This document shows positions 50 through 5,278 of a stretch of 5,278 nucleotides of DNA, in pieces; position 1 is the first letter of the stretch; every line of letters starts with the position of its first letter. The stretch is taken from assembly GCA_003160265.1 (NCBI GenBank), contig PLQY01000035.1, positions 1 to 5,278 of the forward strand, given 5' to 3'. Made by a program: the position numbers and the translations under genes. The stretch is from Peptococcaceae bacterium. Its GTDB lineage: Bacteria; Bacillota; DSM-12270; Thermacetogeniales; Thermacetogeniaceae. The notes below the pieces were generated by a model, which was given only the letters and a program-made list of their open reading frames with translations, ran no database searches and had not been told where the DNA came from.

Positions 50-739
50 TCAGTCTTCTATTTCCGCTACGATATTGACCACCGAGGCATCCTTATCTTT
101 AATCCTGAGCGGGACGCTGAAGGCAGAGAGAATCTTTTTGCCGGTAATCGGAGCCGGATTGTAGTCTTCAAAAATGAGGAGGGTTCGCTGGGGGAATCTC
201 TCCGGGTCGAGAAATGCTTTATGTGTTCTGAAGCCATCCTTAATCCCATTCGGGATGTTTTCAATACTCAGCGTATCAATAGCGACAGCCTTCACATTAG
301 GCAGTTCTTGGCGGATAAACTCGGCAGCCTCGGGAGAAACAGTTGGAAAGTTATTTCCATAGGTATTGAAATCAGTGGCTCTAAAATGAGCATGGCCAGT
401 GTTGAAGAAAAGTATATCCGCCTCATGAAGGGCTTCACCCGCAACTTTGATCTCATCAATTGTAACCAGATGATTGGGTTCCCACTTGGAATAGATCATC
501 AAAGGTTTTTTAAAGATAAATTTCTCAATTGGAACCTGATCAATACCACATCCAGCGGGACAAAAATGCCAGGGCGCATCCACATGCGTACCCGCATGAA
601 GATAAATTGTCAGTATTGTGCCATTCCAGTAATCGCCTTTCGCGAGCTGTTCACGGGGAGTGAGTTTAACCTCGGGCAAACCAGGATATACTGGCATGCC
701 TTCATAAATCGGATAGCCTAACTCAACATACTTTGTCAT
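50..739 (-). CDS. cyclase family protein (kynurenine formamidase-like metal-dependent hydrolase)
   Basis: This is a 229-residue protein of the cyclase family (Pfam PF04199), which includes the formamidase KynB and other cytoplasmic, metal-dependent amide or ester hydrolases. The signature is HAGTHVDAPWHF at residues 48-59. By family knowledge His48, His52, Asp54 and probably His58 bind the metal. A later AIDTLSIE segment, His173 (in THKAFLD) and Glu191-Asp192 sit where the family has its second active-site block. The length is normal and there is no signal peptide. The ATG at 739 is preferred over an in-frame ATG at 763, because AAGGAGA lies 6 bases before it; the longer reading only adds the basic leader MRRERRTN. 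The gene stands alone, without tryptophan-catabolism neighbours, so the substrate is unknown and the name kynB is not justified. Its base composition is poorer in GC than the genes to the right, which may reflect separate ancestry. Confidence 0.87.
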   Translation of the reverse strand: MTKYVELGYPIYEGMPVYPGLPEVKLTPREQLAKGDYWNGTILTIYLHAGTHVDAPWHFCPAGCGIDQVPIEKFIFKKPLMIYSKWEPNHLVTIDEIKVAGEALHEADILFFNTGHAHFRATDFNTYGNNFPTVSPEAAEFIRQELPNVKAVAIDTLSIENIPNGIKDGFRTHKAFLDPERFPQRTLLIFEDYNPAPITGKKILSAFSVPLRIKDKDASVVNIVAEIED

Positions 740-745
740 ATTTGT

Positions 746-753
746 TCTCCTTT
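746..753 (-). promoter_or_regulatory. ribosome binding site of the cyclase-family gene
   Basis: The minus strand reads AAAGGAGA here, 6 bases before the ATG at 739. It fixes that ATG as the likely start, because the upstream in-frame ATG at 763 would place this site inside the coding region. Confidence 0.75.
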
Positions 754-830
754 CTCTTCTCATGTTTCGAGCCGGAAATTAATTAAAACTTCTAAGTACC
801 CAACGTTGCTCATCCAGGCCAATTGTTTAA

Positions 831-1242: not shown

Positions 1243-1272
1243 TTGCGAGCGCCGCCTGTTCATTCATATAGA
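1243..1272 (+). promoter_or_regulatory. possible promoter of the phosphoribosyltransferase/DprA-like operon
   Basis: TTGCGA (1243-1248) and TATAGA (1267-1272) each match four of six consensus bases and are separated by 18 bases. Transcription would begin near 1279, leaving a very short leader that contains a G-run (1280-1285) before the TTG at 1292. The match is moderate; what favours it is its agreement with the start chosen from the protein. An upstream promoter in 1000-1200 cannot be excluded. Confidence 0.25.
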
Positions 1273-1291
1273 GGGGTTCGGGGGGATCGGA

Positions 1292-1816
1292 TTGATTTTT
1301 AAAAATACGGCCAGCAACCAGGCGGACATCATCACTTTAGCATTCTATCACCCCCGGCGCGGCGGCTCAAATCCCGATTTTGACGAGCAGAGCATGCAGA
1401 TCTTGAGCTTGAAGGCGCGCAACAGACAGGTAATTTCATCGTATTACCGGATCGTCGATCCCTTGCTCGGATGGGACTTTGCTATTGCCGTCGTTCCTTC
1501 CAGCGACTCCGCCAGGATCGGTTCCGGCATTGGCGATCTGGCGCAACTGCTCGCCGGACCTGGCCGCACCGATGCCACATCATGCCTGGTTCGCCATACG
1601 ACAATTCCCAAGCTGGCCTGTGGCGGGGACCGGAAGCTGGAAGTTCATTTAAATTCGATCAGGGTGGCCAGGACGCATCTGATCAGGGGACGAGAGGTAT
1701 TGTTGCTCGATGACATCACCACAACAGGGAATTCGCTCCGGGCGTGCAGAATTCTTCTGGAACAGAACGGCGCCTCGCTGGTGAAGTGTCTCGCCCTGGC
1801 CGAAACGGCCAGTTAA
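1292..1816 (+). CDS. phosphoribosyltransferase paired with a DprA-like protein
   Basis: The protein is about 174 residues if it starts at TTG 1292. It is a type I phosphoribosyltransferase fold. The PRPP-binding motif VLLLDDITTTGNS (1697-1735, residues 136-148) has the two acidic residues and the TTG loop typical of the ComF-like and orotate/purine salvage superfamily. Upstream blocks NPDFDEQSM, AVVPSSDS and CLVRHTTIPKLACGGDR resemble, from memory, the phosphoribosyltransferases found beside RecQ-like helicases and DprA-like proteins. They do not look like housekeeping salvage enzymes. No N-terminal zinc-finger cysteines of true ComF are seen in the conserved part. The frame is open back to an ATG at 1073 (247 residues), with further ATGs at 1121 and 1181. 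The first 70 or so residues of that reading look non-coding and none of these ATGs has a good ribosome binding site. TTG 1292 follows GGGGGG by 6 bases. The start is uncertain; the fold is not. Substrate base unknown. It is the first gene of an operon with the DprA-like gene. Confidence 0.85.
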   Translation: MIFKNTASNQADIITLAFYHPRRGGSNPDFDEQSMQILSLKARNRQVISSYYRIVDPLLGWDFAIAVVPSSDSARIGSGIGDLAQLLAGPGRTDATSCLVRHTTIPKLACGGDRKLEVHLNSIRVARTHLIRGREVLLLDDITTTGNSLRACRILLEQNGASLVKCLALAETAS

Positions 1817-1820
1817 GGAG
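1815..1820 (+). promoter_or_regulatory. ribosome binding site of the DprA-like gene
   Basis: AAGGAG overlaps the TAA stop of the phosphoribosyltransferase gene and lies 5 bases before the ATG at 1826. It fixes the start of the second gene, and its position suggests translational coupling of the two cistrons. Confidence 0.85.
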
Positions 1821-1825
1821 AAGCA

Positions 1826-2809
1826 ATGTCGGCCATCGTTTACCTGTTGACACTCCTGAAGACCCCCAATTTCAGCCGGAAAAAGACCTGGAAAAGCGTG
1901 CCCCTGCTCAGACAGCACGAGCCCTCGGGAATTGCAGAGCTGAGAGACCTGCTGCTTGGTTCTGGTTTCAATCATGAGGAGATCCCCGGACCTGAGGCGC
2001 TGAGCGCCGCTTACTCCCAGGCGGTGGACCTGCTGGACCGGACGGACAGGCTGGGTATCCAGGTCATTCAGTCCGACAGTGAATATTACCCGGAACGATT
2101 GCGGGGCATCAACGACCCGCCCGTTTTGCTGTTTGTGAAAGGCAGCCCGGGCTGCCTCGCTTCCGGCCTGGCCTGTGCGGTCATCGGAACCAAGGAGCCC
2201 TCGCCATATGGCCTGAAATGTGCAAATTGGCTGGGCGCATCGCTCGCCGGGAAAGGTTTCGTAGTGGTCAGCGGCCTGGCGCGCGGCTGCGATACGGGCG
2301 CCCATCAAGGCTGCGTCCAGGCAAAAGGCCGGACAGTCGCCGTGTTGGCGCACGGCCTCGACCAGGTCTATCCTCCGGAAAACCGTGGTCTGGCCGAGCA
2401 GATCCTGTCGATGGATGGGTGCCTGGCGAGTGAATACCCCCCGGGCGAAAAACCTTTCAAGTATAGCTTTATCGAAAGAGACCGGATCCAGAGCGGGTTG
2501 AGTTCAGGACTGATCGTGGTGGAAACGGATCTTGAAGGCGGGACAATGCATACAGTCCGGTTCGGCCTGGAACAGGGACGGTCGATCGCCTGCCTGAAAC
2601 ATCCGGAGCACTTGGCATCGTTAGCGCAAGCTCGCGGCAACCAGAAACTGATCGCCGAAGAAAAGGCCGCGCCTCTGGGCAGCCGGGAGGATGTAGCTGC
2701 CTTCCTTTTAAAAATTTCCGGCTCCGGCGCCAAGCACGACCTGGAAAGCAACCGCCGGCCGCGATCAGTAAAATACCGGCAGCCGGCACTGTGGGAAGAT
2801 CAGGAGTAG
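1826..2809 (+). CDS. divergent DprA/Smf-like protein (SLOG-type Rossmann domain)
   Basis: This 327-residue protein has the whole DprA core. An N-terminal helical region (about 1-75) is followed by YYPERLRGINDPPVLL (87-102), VIGTKEPSPYG (119-129), VSGLARGCDTGAH (148-160), VAVLAHGLDQVYPPEN (171-186) and ASEYPPGEKP (201-210). In true DprA this Rossmann fold binds ssDNA and loads RecA during transformation. Two signature blocks differ. The usual FPxRNRIIAGLS reads FIERDRIQSGLS (215-226), with Asp219 in place of Asn. The usual SGSLITA loop reads EGGTMHTV (237-244). A terminal NQKLI...SREDVAAFL segment (272-293) matches the end of the core, and only a short basic and polar tail follows, so the usual C-terminal winged-helix domain is absent. 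It lies 9 bases after the phosphoribosyltransferase gene and is surely co-transcribed. It probably belongs to a paralogous group that senses or processes a nucleotide or nucleic acid; that role is inferred. It should not be named dprA as though it were the competence gene. Confidence 0.9.
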   Translation: MSAIVYLLTLLKTPNFSRKKTWKSVPLLRQHEPSGIAELRDLLLGSGFNHEEIPGPEALSAAYSQAVDLLDRTDRLGIQVIQSDSEYYPERLRGINDPPVLLFVKGSPGCLASGLACAVIGTKEPSPYGLKCANWLGASLAGKGFVVVSGLARGCDTGAHQGCVQAKGRTVAVLAHGLDQVYPPENRGLAEQILSMDGCLASEYPPGEKPFKYSFIERDRIQSGLSSGLIVVETDLEGGTMHTVRFGLEQGRSIACLKHPEHLASLAQARGNQKLIAEEKAAPLGSREDVAAFLLKISGSGAKHDLESNRRPRSVKYRQPALWEDQE

Positions 2810-2831
2810 GAAGCAGCGGAGAACGGTTCTT

Positions 2832-3311
2832 TTACGGCAGGAAGATATACTCGCTCGGCTTCACCCGCCGGAACACCAGGTGGTTGAAGACCGCCCTGTT
2901 CAGGTTTTCCGGGTCGTCCCCGTAGCGGGCGATCACATCCACGCACAGGTTCCAGAAGGACGAGAAGGGGCCGAGCGACGATCCCAGGTTCTCGTAGATC
3001 GTCTTTCCCTTGGGAGTGATCTGAACCCCCTTGTCCGACACCTCCACCAGTTTCTCCTTCTTCAGTTCCTCGATGATCCGCCGCAGGACGCGGCTGTAGC
3101 CGCCGGTCTTGGCGCGCATAAAGTCATAGAAGCCCAACTGCTGGCGATCCGTTTTTTCCGCGCTCACCAGAAACAGCAGGTTGTGTATGGTATACACGGA
3201 CTGGAAGGGATAGCACATGAGCAGCCGCAGCACCAGGACATGCTGCACGGTATAGGAGATCACTTCACCCGCAACTCCCGTAGCCTGAGCCCTGAGCCAG
3301 GTTTGTCCCAT
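2832..3311 (-). CDS. hypothetical protein with a winged-helix-like centre (weakly YwgA/Panacea-like)
   Basis: This is a 159-residue protein of no certain family. Residues 42-50 (IHNLLFLVS) followed by 69-109 (GGYSRVLRRIIEELKKEKL, then ITPKGKTIYENL) follow a pattern seen in small winged-helix proteins: helix, helix, wing, then 'LT..G'-like end. The order and spacing recall the uncharacterised YwgA and SocA/Panacea-type proteins, some of which act as antitoxins, but the likeness is weak and judged by eye. There is no signal peptide. Residues 17-33 are fairly hydrophobic but too interrupted to call a membrane segment. The start is uncertain: ATG 3311 would have a leader of only about 11 bases from the nearby -10 box and no clear ribosome binding site. 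Later choices are GTG at residue 17 or ATG at residue 32. The gene converges on the DprA-like gene, with 22 bases between the stops, and follows pabC on the same strand after 50 bases. Confidence 0.7.
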   Translation of the reverse strand: MGQTWLRAQATGVAGEVISYTVQHVLVLRLLMCYPFQSVYTIHNLLFLVSAEKTDRQQLGFYDFMRAKTGGYSRVLRRIIEELKKEKLVEVSDKGVQITPKGKTIYENLGSSLGPFSSFWNLCVDVIARYGDDPENLNRAVFNHLVFRRVKPSEYIFLP

Positions 3312-3328
3312 CTTAAAGAGATTTCTGT

Positions 3329-3334
3329 ATTATA
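3329..3334 (-). promoter_or_regulatory. -10 box for the winged-helix-like gene
   Basis: The minus strand has a perfect TATAAT, 17 bases before the ATG at 3311. The hexamer 17 bases further upstream (TTCCTC) is a poor -35. If it is real, the gene can be transcribed independently of pabBC, from a start near 3322. Confidence 0.4.
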
Positions 3335-3361
3335 GCGGATTTTCCTGCAGCGAGGAAGAGA

Positions 3362-4336
3362 TTATTCCGGGCCCGGCGCCTGCCGGATTCCGTGCTGTAC
3401 ATAGTCCCGGTATGCCTGGCGCATCCTAAAGGCGATCTCTCCCGGACGGCCGTTCCCGACCGGCACACCGTCGAGACTTACCAGGGGCATGACCTCGAGC
3501 AGGGAGTTGGTCAACCAGGCCTCGCGGGCGCTCTCGAAACCACGGCGGTCAATGGCCTCCTCGCTCACCGCCAACCCCAGGCCACCTCCGGCGTCCAGCA
3601 CGATCTCCCTGGCGATCCCGGGCAGCAAGCCGCTCCCGGCCGGCGGGGTGACGAGCCGCCCGCCATCGAAAAGCAGGAAGACATTGCTGACCGTGCCCTC
3701 GGCCAGCTCGCCCCTGAGATTGAAGAAGAGGCCCTCGTCGGCGCCGGCAGCCACCGCCTCCCGGCGGCCCAGAACATTCTCCAGGCAGTTGAGGGATTTC
3801 AGCCTGACCAGAGGAGACAGGTGATTGCGGGGAAAGCTGACGGTCGCCGCCCGCTGGCCAGAGCGATAAGCATCGGGGGGATAGGGTTCCCCCGGGTTGG
3901 CGGTGATCACCACGGTCGGGCGGAGTTCCCGGCGAGGCAGCAGACCTCTGACCCCCGGCGGATGAGCGCCCCTGGTCACCGTCAGCCGCAGACTGCCAGC
4001 GCCGACGGCGCCGGCAGCGCCAGGCTCTCTCCCCGCGCCCGCCGGGTGCCCGCTTGCGGAGGCGGTACCCGCCAGAGCGACCAGCACCGCCTCCAACCCA
4101 GCGGCGATCTCCTCTCCCGGATAGGGGATGCCGAGCGCCCGGCATCCCTCGGCCAGCCGGGCGGCATGCCGTGGCCAGACAGGCGCCCGCGCCGGGCGCC
4201 CTCTGGGCGCGGCGCCCGCATACAGCCTGACGGTCTCGAACAGCCCGTCCCCGAAGAGGAAACCGCGCTCTCCGGCCTCCAGGCAGGCCTCTCCGGAGGA
4301 GACGAAGCTCCCGTTGACCCAGGTCAGGTCAGGCAA
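3362..4336 (-). CDS. pabC: aminodeoxychorismate lyase (class IV PLP aminotransferase fold)
   Basis: This cytoplasmic enzyme cleaves 4-amino-4-deoxychorismate to p-aminobenzoate and pyruvate for folate synthesis. The class IV fold is clear: GERGFLFGDGLFETVR (22-37), then RLKSLNCLENVLGRREA (178-194), where Lys180 is the expected Schiff-base lysine to pyridoxal phosphate. Next come GELAEGTVSNVFL (209-221), with Glu213 near the cofactor, and a GLLPGIAR block (236-243). Sequence alone cannot fully exclude a branched-chain or D-amino-acid aminotransferase, but its place directly after pabB decides for PabC. At 324 residues it is longer than the usual 270-290. Two Ala/Gly/Pro/Arg-rich stretches (about 41-55 and 89-113) account for most of the excess. 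The start is TTG at 4336; the gene overlaps the end of pabB by 13 bases, and AGGAGGT lies 9 bases before it, inside pabB. Translational coupling with pabB is likely. Confidence 0.9.
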   Translation of the reverse strand: MPDLTWVNGSFVSSGEACLEAGERGFLFGDGLFETVRLYAGAAPRGRPARAPVWPRHAARLAEGCRALGIPYPGEEIAAGLEAVLVALAGTASASGHPAGAGREPGAAGAVGAGSLRLTVTRGAHPPGVRGLLPRRELRPTVVITANPGEPYPPDAYRSGQRAATVSFPRNHLSPLVRLKSLNCLENVLGRREAVAAGADEGLFFNLRGELAEGTVSNVFLLFDGGRLVTPPAGSGLLPGIAREIVLDAGGGLGLAVSEEAIDRRGFESAREAWLTNSLLEVMPLVSLDGVPVGNGRPGEIAFRMRQAYRDYVQHGIRQAPGPE

Positions 4337-5278
4337 GCGGTGACGACCTCCTCCCCGTATCCCAGGGCCTGCATCAAAGCCCGGGCCTTGTAGATCGTCT
4401 CCCAGTACTCGTCGTCCGGATCGGAGTCGGAGACGATGGCGCCGCCGGCGTGGAAGTAGGCCACCTGGTCCTTGATCACGAACGTCCTGATGACGATGTT
4501 CAGGTCCGAGCGCCCGTCGAAGCCCAGGTAACCGATCGAACCCGTATACACGCCCCGCTTTACCGGCTCCAACTCCTCAATGATCTCCATCGCCCTGATC
4601 TTGGGTGCTCCGGTGATCGAGCCGCCGGGAAAAGACGCCTTTAACAGATCGCCGACGTCCTTGCCGGCCTCCAGGGTGCCCCTGACCGTGGAAACCAGGT
4701 GCCACACCGTCGGGTACTCCTCCAGGCAGATCAGCTCGGGCACGTGGACACTCCCAAAGCTGCACACCCGCCCGATGTCGTTCCGCTCCAGGTCGATGAT
4801 CATCACCAGCTCCGCCCGGTCCTTCTCGCTGCTCACCAGGTCCTGGCGGAGGCCGGCGTCTTCGAGGGGATCCCGCCCGCGGCGACGTGTCCCCTTGATC
4901 GGCCTGGTCTCCACCTGCCCGCCGCGCACCTGGAGGAACCGCTCCGGCGAGGCACTGGCCACTGTCAATTCGGGGTAGTTGAGATAGGCCGCAAAGGGCG
5001 CCGGGTTGATCCGGCGCAACCTGCAATAGAGTTGCCAGGGGGTGGTGGAGATCGGACAGGCAAAGCGCTGGGTGAGGTTGACCTCGAAGATGTCCCCGGC
5101 GGCGATGTAGTCCTTGCACCGCTGCACCGCCCGGCGGTAGGAGGCCCGGTCGAAGTGGCCGGTAATCCGGAACTCCTCGCTGCTCTCGGTCCCGGCGCCC
5201 CGCGCCGGCATGCTCACCGGAGGCTCTTTCAGCGCTTGCGACAGCAACGCCTCCAACTCGCCCAGGCGCTGCCCGGCC
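4324..5278 (-). CDS. pabB: aminodeoxychorismate synthase component I, C-terminal part (5' end outside window)
   Basis: The frame is open to the window edge, and about 317 residues of the chorismate-binding domain are present. The family is usually near 450 or more, so the N-terminal part lies outside. PabB, with a glutaminase subunit (PabA/TrpG), converts chorismate and ammonia to 4-amino-4-deoxychorismate. Counting from the codon at 5256, blocks seen are GDIFEVNLTQRF (54-65), NPAPFAAYL (85-93), DLERNDIGRV (155-164), FPGGSITGAPK (209-219) and GGAIVSDSDPDDEYWET (271-287), the last holding a magnesium-binding Glu. RPIKGTRRRG (118-127) has Lys121. By family knowledge this lysine marks PabB, whereas anthranilate synthase TrpE has PIAGT. 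Overlap with pabC confirms the folate role. No pabA lies between them, so the glutaminase must be upstream, fused at the missing N-terminus, or shared with tryptophan synthesis. A TTG at 5256 is probably internal, since coding continues before it. Confidence 0.92.
   Translation of the reverse strand, partial: AGQRLGELEALLSQALKEPPVSMPARGAGTESSEEFRITGHFDRASYRRAVQRCKDYIAAGDIFEVNLTQRFACPISTTPWQLYCRLRRINPAPFAAYLNYPELTVASASPERFLQVRGGQVETRPIKGTRRRGRDPLEDAGLRQDLVSSEKDRAELVMIIDLERNDIGRVCSFGSVHVPELICLEEYPTVWHLVSTVRGTLEAGKDVGDLLKASFPGGSITGAPKIRAMEIIEELEPVKRGVYTGSIGYLGFDGRSDLNIVIRTFVIKDQVAYFHAGGAIVSDSDPDDEYWETIYKARALMQALGYGEEVVTACLT
4346..4352 (-). promoter_or_regulatory. ribosome binding site of pabC, inside pabB
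   Basis: The minus strand carries a consensus AGGAGGT, 9 bases before the TTG at 4336. It lies within the last codons of pabB and supports the unusual TTG start. No ATG or GTG in this frame sits nearer to it. Confidence 0.75.

Follow-up and report, generated by a model that had tools for sequence, protein, structure and literature searches.

A HAD-less, Helicase-less Relative of ShosTA in a Peptococcaceae Genome

A compact two-gene pair

We analyzed a 5,278-nucleotide stretch of DNA from a Peptococcaceae bacterium (hereafter the window), which is the entire contig C103 (PLQY01000035.1) of a 1.78 Mb assembly and holds six genes. Two of these, encoding a phosphoribosyltransferase (PRT) and a DprA-like protein, had been singled out in a preliminary description, made from the sequence alone, as a possible conflict module. 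We find that the pair is a HAD-less, helicase-less relative of the ShosTA system, with the following features.

1292–1816, plus strand: ShosT-like PRT of 174 residues, with a TTG start and no HAD domain
1697–1735, plus strand: loop VLLLDDITTTGNS (residues 136–148), which binds phosphoribosyl pyrophosphate (PRPP); its Asp pair is invariant
1814–1820, plus strand: TAAGGAG, a Shine–Dalgarno-like sequence overlapping the PRT stop codon
1826–2809, plus strand: ShosA-like DprA-family protein of 327 residues
2045–2668, plus strand: Rossmann-type domain of DprA (PF02481)
2780–2794, plus strand: C-terminal QPALW peptide (residues 319–323), which resembles the QxxLF sliding-clamp-binding motif and has a putative function in clamp binding

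The two-gene arrangement was confirmed, as both open reading frames (ORFs) are intact and only 9 bases lie between the PRT stop codon (TAA, 1814–1816), which the TAAGGAG sequence covers as had been noted, and the ATG of the DprA-like gene at 1826. The PRPP motif reported for the PRT is likewise intact, and every one of the 113 PRTs aligned has both aspartates. The PRT frame stays open upstream as far as a GTG at 1073, and in a near-identical relative (P0001) the gene is called from an ATG at 1184. As 28 of the 40 rows in the alignment start no more than four columns from TTG 1292, this codon, also the one first proposed, is the likeliest start. Pfam assigns the PRT to Pribosyltran (29.5 bits, cut-off 26.3) and its partner to DNA_processg_A (209.9 bits). 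Between the window and a 93%-identical relative (L003), the ratio of nonsynonymous to synonymous substitution rates (dN/dS) is 0.19 for the PRT and 0.16 for the DprA-like gene, so the frames are not due to chance; both genes are intact and under purifying selection. A scan for promoters and terminators returned matches at chance level.

Adjacency across relatives

Searching with the PRT alone, we found a DprA-like gene adjoining it on the same strand in 20 of 20 places, comprising viral contigs (15/15), plasmids (2/2), a phage record (1/1, from match coordinates) and two genus members. Nine of the 15 viral loci are near copies of one another, among them L060, whose DprA-like frame is split in two. 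Of the 15, four (L066–L069) encode a HAD-fused PRT with the DprA gene first; these score only 23–25 bits on the short-PRT profile, and two of them are pairwise near copies. The remaining 15 scored loci reach at least 90 bits. Rare adjacency, which the preliminary description had listed as speaking against a module, was therefore not borne out, with the solitary PRT of genome G334 as a counterexample. That orphan (G334:C15, L075:3197–3802; 201 residues, 75 bits) is the strongest of 46 weaker PRT matches (26.2–75.1 bits), drawn from the family and phylum samples with about 1.5 kb taken on each side, none of which has a DprA-like neighbor. The 46 are the 47 loci other than those of the window and G013, minus L023, where the ORF matching the PRT profile was absent. 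Among the 398 genomes of the phylum sample, only the window's genome and G334 exceed 60 bits, and the PRT family is thus rare in that sample.

Searching viral sequences with the DprA-like alignment instead yielded 11 loci, seven of which (L079–L084, L089) have a PRT or HAD-PRT neighbor; the PRT half in L079 and L081 is weak or undetected by Pfam. At L085 a HAD gene stands at the contig start with no PRT in view, and L086–L088 showed no reliable PRT neighbor. Among named records, the closest is Peptococcaceae bacterium palsa_1188 (L003, matching G013:C17 of the same genus), whose DprA-like protein is 93% identical, and a scan of genome contigs returned this single locus. Scanning viral sequences with a different PRT alignment, or with the HAD protein of Hymenobacter, recovered no relatives, and plasmid searches with three further PRTs gave only plasmids already known from the earlier search.

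Phylogenetic and structural placement

Three ShosT entries head the Foldseek list for the PRT model, whose fold resembles that of solved ShosT, and the protein scores 60.7 bits on the PADLOC ShosT model. Placement with ComF, which the preliminary description had named as a possible objection, was rejected by the approximately unbiased (AU) test (p 0.0047). The competence model TIGR00201 gives 31 bits against a cut-off of 233.55, a threshold that true ComFs of the phylum may also miss (L025, 107.9). A purine or pyrimidine salvage enzyme was rejected too, as all listed salvage PRT models fall far below their cut-offs. The PRT tree was built from 63 rows picked for spread, including 23 of 112 proteins of unknown partner and 20 ComFs from the 46 weak loci. 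Of the HAD-fused proteins, only the P2-type HAD-PRTs (L066, L068, L077) fall within the window's branch.

The DprA-like protein was modeled with a mean predicted local distance difference test score (pLDDT) of 91.0; its best structural match is DprA (3maj), followed by ShosA (8zva), and it scores 237.9 bits on the PADLOC ShosA model. It had been called a divergent DprA, a label that the phylogeny supports although the protein marginally exceeds the NCBIfam dprA cut-off (194.9 versus 191.15 bits). In a tree of 40 rows (10 with unknown partner), it clusters with proteins that partner short or HAD-fused PRTs; the fork of all ShosA-type rows has support of 89/74 (unstarred), and an inner set of 16 rows containing the window protein has 99/95. 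Canonical DprAs form one clade apart from it (11 of 12 rows, 100/100) that includes the copy of its own genome (L001). The twelfth canonical row (L128) lies below the family cut-off and groups with the RecQ partners, a placement flagged for its long branch. Orthology with chromosomal DprA was rejected by this tree and by the existence of that separate canonical copy. All 20 family genomes contain a DprA-family match (19 above the cut-off) and 18 have a single one; a second, ShosA-like copy occurs only in the window's genome and G013.

Architectures with and without HAD or RecQ

Related loci present the PRT in four settings. It is bare, with neither HAD nor RecQ, in the window, L003, L054 and L055–L065; it follows a fused HAD region in L066–L069, L077–L079 and L081–L083; a separate HAD gene comes after the DprA gene on the Hymenobacter plasmid pHB (L053) and the viral contig L080; and it is fused behind RecQ in L094–L096, each with a DprA-like gene. 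No HAD ORF was found in the stretches examined of the bare loci, that of L062 stopping 52 bases past the DprA-like gene, and the genus genomes gave only weak, generic HAD matches (20–23 bits). A Nudix, nuclease or helicase gene, which the preliminary description had proposed to look for, is absent from the six genes of the window as judged by Pfam; the extra part in relatives is a HAD phosphatase-like domain.

The HAD region varies in its catalytic residues. The ShosT of phage P2_4C9 (L077:1190–2473) matches PDB 8zvb from end to end; its HAD motif I is FSIADVV, with both aspartates missing, and L066 has LSVEGTI at this position. Motif I is DLDxT in L078, L079, L081, L082, L053, L080 and L085, and the HAD-PRTs among these (L078, L079, L081, L082) retain FDLDxTL. 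The PRT Asp pair is kept in all 10 PRT-bearing rows of the same alignment (A5). Given the varied HAD and RecQ settings, and the loss of HAD aspartates where the PRT retains its Asp pair, we take the transferase to be the probable effector; HAD would be an accessory that at times lacks its catalytic aspartates and at times is absent.

Several loci merit separate mention. The distinct HAD genes directly 3' of a DprA-like gene lie at L053:3738–4247, L080:3514–4035 and L085:731–1228, the Hymenobacter one (L053) being missing from the PLSDB gene table. L078 is the filamentous Pseudomonas phage PfAC02a, in which a HAD-PRT and a DprA (annotated ShosT and ShosA) adjoin KwaA/KwaB. At L084:3047–5681, upstream of the DprA-like gene, a 570-residue protein scores 70.5 bits over its C-terminal part on the short-PRT profile and has no Pfam domain above cut-off. 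RecQ-PRT and DprA operons of the PsyrTA/RqlHI type occur in the same family and phylum as the window (L094 in G010:C101, L095 and L096).

A clamp-motif-like tail

From residue 311 onward, the DprA-like protein has pLDDT values below 50, is predicted to be disordered, and ends in QPALW-EDQE. Bacterial sliding-clamp-binding peptides follow the consensus QL[S/D]LF or QxxLF and are frequently C-terminal, according to excerpts of PMC12309361 and PMC4549789; the window peptide has Trp where QxxLF has Phe. The pattern Q-x-x-hydrophobic-(x)-hydrophobic occurs within the last 17 residues of 89 of 120 ShosA-like proteins (shuffle mean 4.1, maximum 15), and two stricter patterns in 36 and 35 (shuffle means 2.0 and 1.5, maxima 6 and 6). 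All three were run on a single set of proteins, the 120 best among 1330 matches, which are mutually related and have unknown partners, and the pattern was picked after the tails had been viewed. By eye, four further tails (L055, L066, L068 and L079) finish in Q-x-x-(L/M/F)-D-L, a form that the pattern leaves uncounted. Canonical DprAs of the window's phylum show the pattern in 1 of 49 rows; these rows (L001, L109–L127, L131–L159; the tree row L128 is outside them) represent 48 genes, L001 and L126 being one gene. One search for such DprAs had matches in 56 of 61 genomes, from which 30 loci were taken. No PRT tail has it (0/112). A QxxL[F/W]-type tail is thus common in this DprA-like branch and near-absent from the canonical DprAs compared, which is new here. 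In L094, L095 and L096, the DprA-like partners end near QPSLF, QLSLF and QYSLF, respectively.

We infer from the peptide that the tail may dock on the sliding clamp. That it serves another purpose, such as a grip on the PRT partner, is a strong competing possibility that we place a little below even. The frequency of the motif in this branch and its near-absence from canonical DprAs would suit such a grip. Likeness to the published QxxLF consensus (excerpts of PMC12309361) argues against it, as does the finding, given in excerpts of PMC4670107, that RqlI lacking its last 80 residues still largely neutralizes RqlH. One review covers both the clamp-binding motif and DprA, and its available passages make no link between them; judged by title and abstract opening, none of the papers listed in a search connects the sliding clamp to ShosTA, PsyrTA, RqlI or DprA-like proteins.

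A variable genomic site

The remainder of the window consists of the following.

50–763, minus strand: cyclase-family gene
2810–2831, strand not applicable: right edge of the accessory segment, with homology to the pair-less G014 site from 2828
2832–3311, minus strand: winged-helix gene
3362–4336, minus strand: aminotransferase class IV gene, a folate-synthesis lyase judging by its neighbor
4324–5277, minus strand: chorismate-binding gene, open-ended

In G014, a 98% complete genome of the same genus, the winged-helix, aminotransferase and chorismate genes follow one another as in the window and the pair is missing, with the neighbor on the other side 161 bases away. Window homology to this site begins at 2828, shortly past the DprA-like stop codon. 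About 6.8 kb of L003, pair included, is unmatched in G014 and lies between stretches that do match. Because the pair is missing at the G014 site, it is accessory cargo at a variable site. The winged-helix protein is conserved beside the aminotransferase gene in 3 of 3 genus genomes.

The region common to the window and L003 runs from 1254 to 4551, and the left part is unshared. G+C content is 42–46% over 1–1253 and 56–73% from 1251 on, and homology to L003 breaks off at 1254. For the cyclase gene, no matches at 1e-20 were present in the other two genus genomes. Positions 1–1253 may be a recent insertion or an assembly join.

Plasmids and a P2-like prophage are among the places that carry relatives of the pair. 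In 22 of 5426 E. coli genomes there is a bare pair that belongs to another branch; the one genome examined has it inside a P2-like prophage, flanked by the replication endonuclease and portal genes. At L093:4473–5565 (E. coli AMSHJX01), the bare PRT upstream of an annotated DprA is absent from the RefSeq gene table shown. This prophage position resembles the hotspot that, according to excerpts of PMC9122126, yielded a DprA and PRTase system protecting against T7 and lambda; a figure legend there has HAD among its abbreviations, and the tested system may have been HAD-fused.

Proposed function and alternatives

Taken together, we consider it probable, though well short of settled, that the pair is a ShosTA-type toxin–antitoxin module against phages, with the transferase as the predicted toxic effector. 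Before infection, the DprA-like protein would be stationed on single-stranded DNA or at forks, its tail probably anchoring it to the replication clamp, and would either restrain the transferase or mend the harm it does. Once a phage disturbed host DNA or RNA synthesis, this restraint would fail; the freed transferase would use PRPP, skewing the nucleotide pool or damaging DNA, and growth of the infected cell would cease. The window variant would dispense with the HAD part of known ShosT, which on this view is an accessory. A wider proposal, which we offer as a speculation with the balance clearly against it, is that PRT–DprA systems in general (ShosTA, PsyrTA, the bare pair) might be replication-fork sentinels, in which a partner docked on the bacterial sliding clamp through its C-terminal QxxL[F/W] peptide lets phage takeover or stalling of replication free a minimal, PRPP-using killing transferase.

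A number of observations weigh against a ShosTA-type toxin–antitoxin module. The fused HAD region of known ShosT is missing from the window PRT, and the G334 PRT, which the tree places with that of the window, lacks a DprA-like neighbor across the 9 kb taken. Fold matches of the PRT to ShosT and ComF are tied (Z scores 0.5 apart). A ComF protein obtains 55.4 bits on the PADLOC ShosT model, close to the window PRT, and the same genome's canonical DprA obtains 203.9 bits on the ShosA model; PADLOC names were therefore not taken as proof. In the PRT tree, the ComF side takes in four of seven HAD-fused PRTs (L078, L079, L081, L082) as well as the RecQ-PRTs, with long-branch warnings. As to the clamp proposal, the tail pattern is present in 4 of 8 partners of the short type (a count that includes the near copies window and L003), 2 of 7 of the HAD type, 3 of 3 of the RecQ type and 0 of 4 others, and the RqlI truncation cited above tells against a need for the tail. 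Excerpts of PMC4670107 further report that the RqlH PRT domain by itself is non-toxic; a PRT standing alone may therefore do no harm, or may depend on partners. Finally, a defense island is not visible, because the contig ends at the window.

Three other explanations were weighed. In a module for DNA uptake or recombination, a ComF-like PRT and a second DprA would aid natural transformation or RecA loading; we regard this as improbable, as the AU test rejects the window PRT among ComFs, the second DprA is confined to two of 20 family genomes, relatives sit on plasmids and in a P2-like prophage, and the window's six genes include no com gene. The pair could instead be an inactive relic of a three-gene PRT–DprA–HAD system that lost HAD at the insertion edge. 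Three-gene forms do exist on the Hymenobacter plasmid and viral contig L080, and the accessory segment of the window ends immediately past the DprA-like gene, yet dN/dS values of 0.16–0.19, the intact PRPP motif and the retention of bare pairs of another branch in E. coli make a relic less probable still. Least credible is derivation from PsyrTA/RqlHI by loss of the RecQ helicase, the kinship suggested in the preliminary description. RecQ-PRT and DprA operons are found in the same family (G010) and phylum, with a DprA-like neighbor in 3 of 3 examined, but the two trees place RecQ-type PRTs and the DprAs that accompany them on branches of their own (100/100 and 100/99, three rows each), on which ground this candidate was rejected, and the PsyrT model gives the window PRT only 20.4 bits. 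The suggestion of a helicase-less, conflict-type PRT and DprA pair is upheld, with ShosTA by Foldseek, rather than PsyrTA/RqlHI, as its nearest kin. The further idea in that description, sensing of a PRPP-derived nucleotide by the DprA-like protein, is a conjecture.

The window pair represents a PRT–DprA system in its smallest form. Together with its relatives, it suggests that the transferase is the effector and that the HAD and helicase parts are add-ons, and the clamp-like tail provides a testable hint that these systems might watch for phages at the replication clamp.

Comparison with known systems

ShosTA, found in P2-like phages, has solved structures for ShosT (8zvb, 8zvc, 8zvd, 9w2p) and ShosA (8zva, 9vzo). 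The window pair shares with it the adjacency of PRT and DprA-like genes on one strand, the PRT fold with the PRPP Asp pair, a DprA-like partner on the ShosA branch, and carriage as accessory cargo. It differs in that the ShosT-type proteins of this analysis have 392–481 residues (432 in the PDB) and an N-terminal HAD region, whereas the window PRT has 174 residues and none; the PRT gene also comes first, in contrast to the P2/APEC type of ShosTA, where DprA does. As HAD is not fused to the PRT, we call the pair ShosTA-like rather than ShosTA proper. According to excerpts of a review (PMC12593503), ShosT disturbs purine metabolism, leading to DNA duplications, filamentation and death, while ShosA binds DNA and counters ShosT, with T7 Gp0.7 as a trigger. 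Titles and passages of mostly non-subscription literature, a scope outside which the main ShosTA mechanism paper lies, contained no description of a HAD-less ShosTA.

As in PsyrTA/RqlHI, one operon couples a PRT with a DprA-like partner; in that system a RecQ-like helicase bears the PRT at its C-terminal end, and the window has no helicase. Excerpts of PMC4670107 describe the PRT of RqlHI as carried by the helicase protein and RqlH toxicity as lost upon changes to the PRT domain or its PRPP-site residues. Competence ComF/ComFC and DprA have the same two folds, and the window differs from that pair in a PRT outside the ComF clade, a canonical DprA elsewhere in the genome and a lack of com genes in the window. 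The PRT–DprA–HAD operons (L053, L080) have a separate downstream HAD gene that the window lacks; like the window, they place a short PRT ahead of the DprA-like gene, and the window PRT is 46% identical to that of L053.
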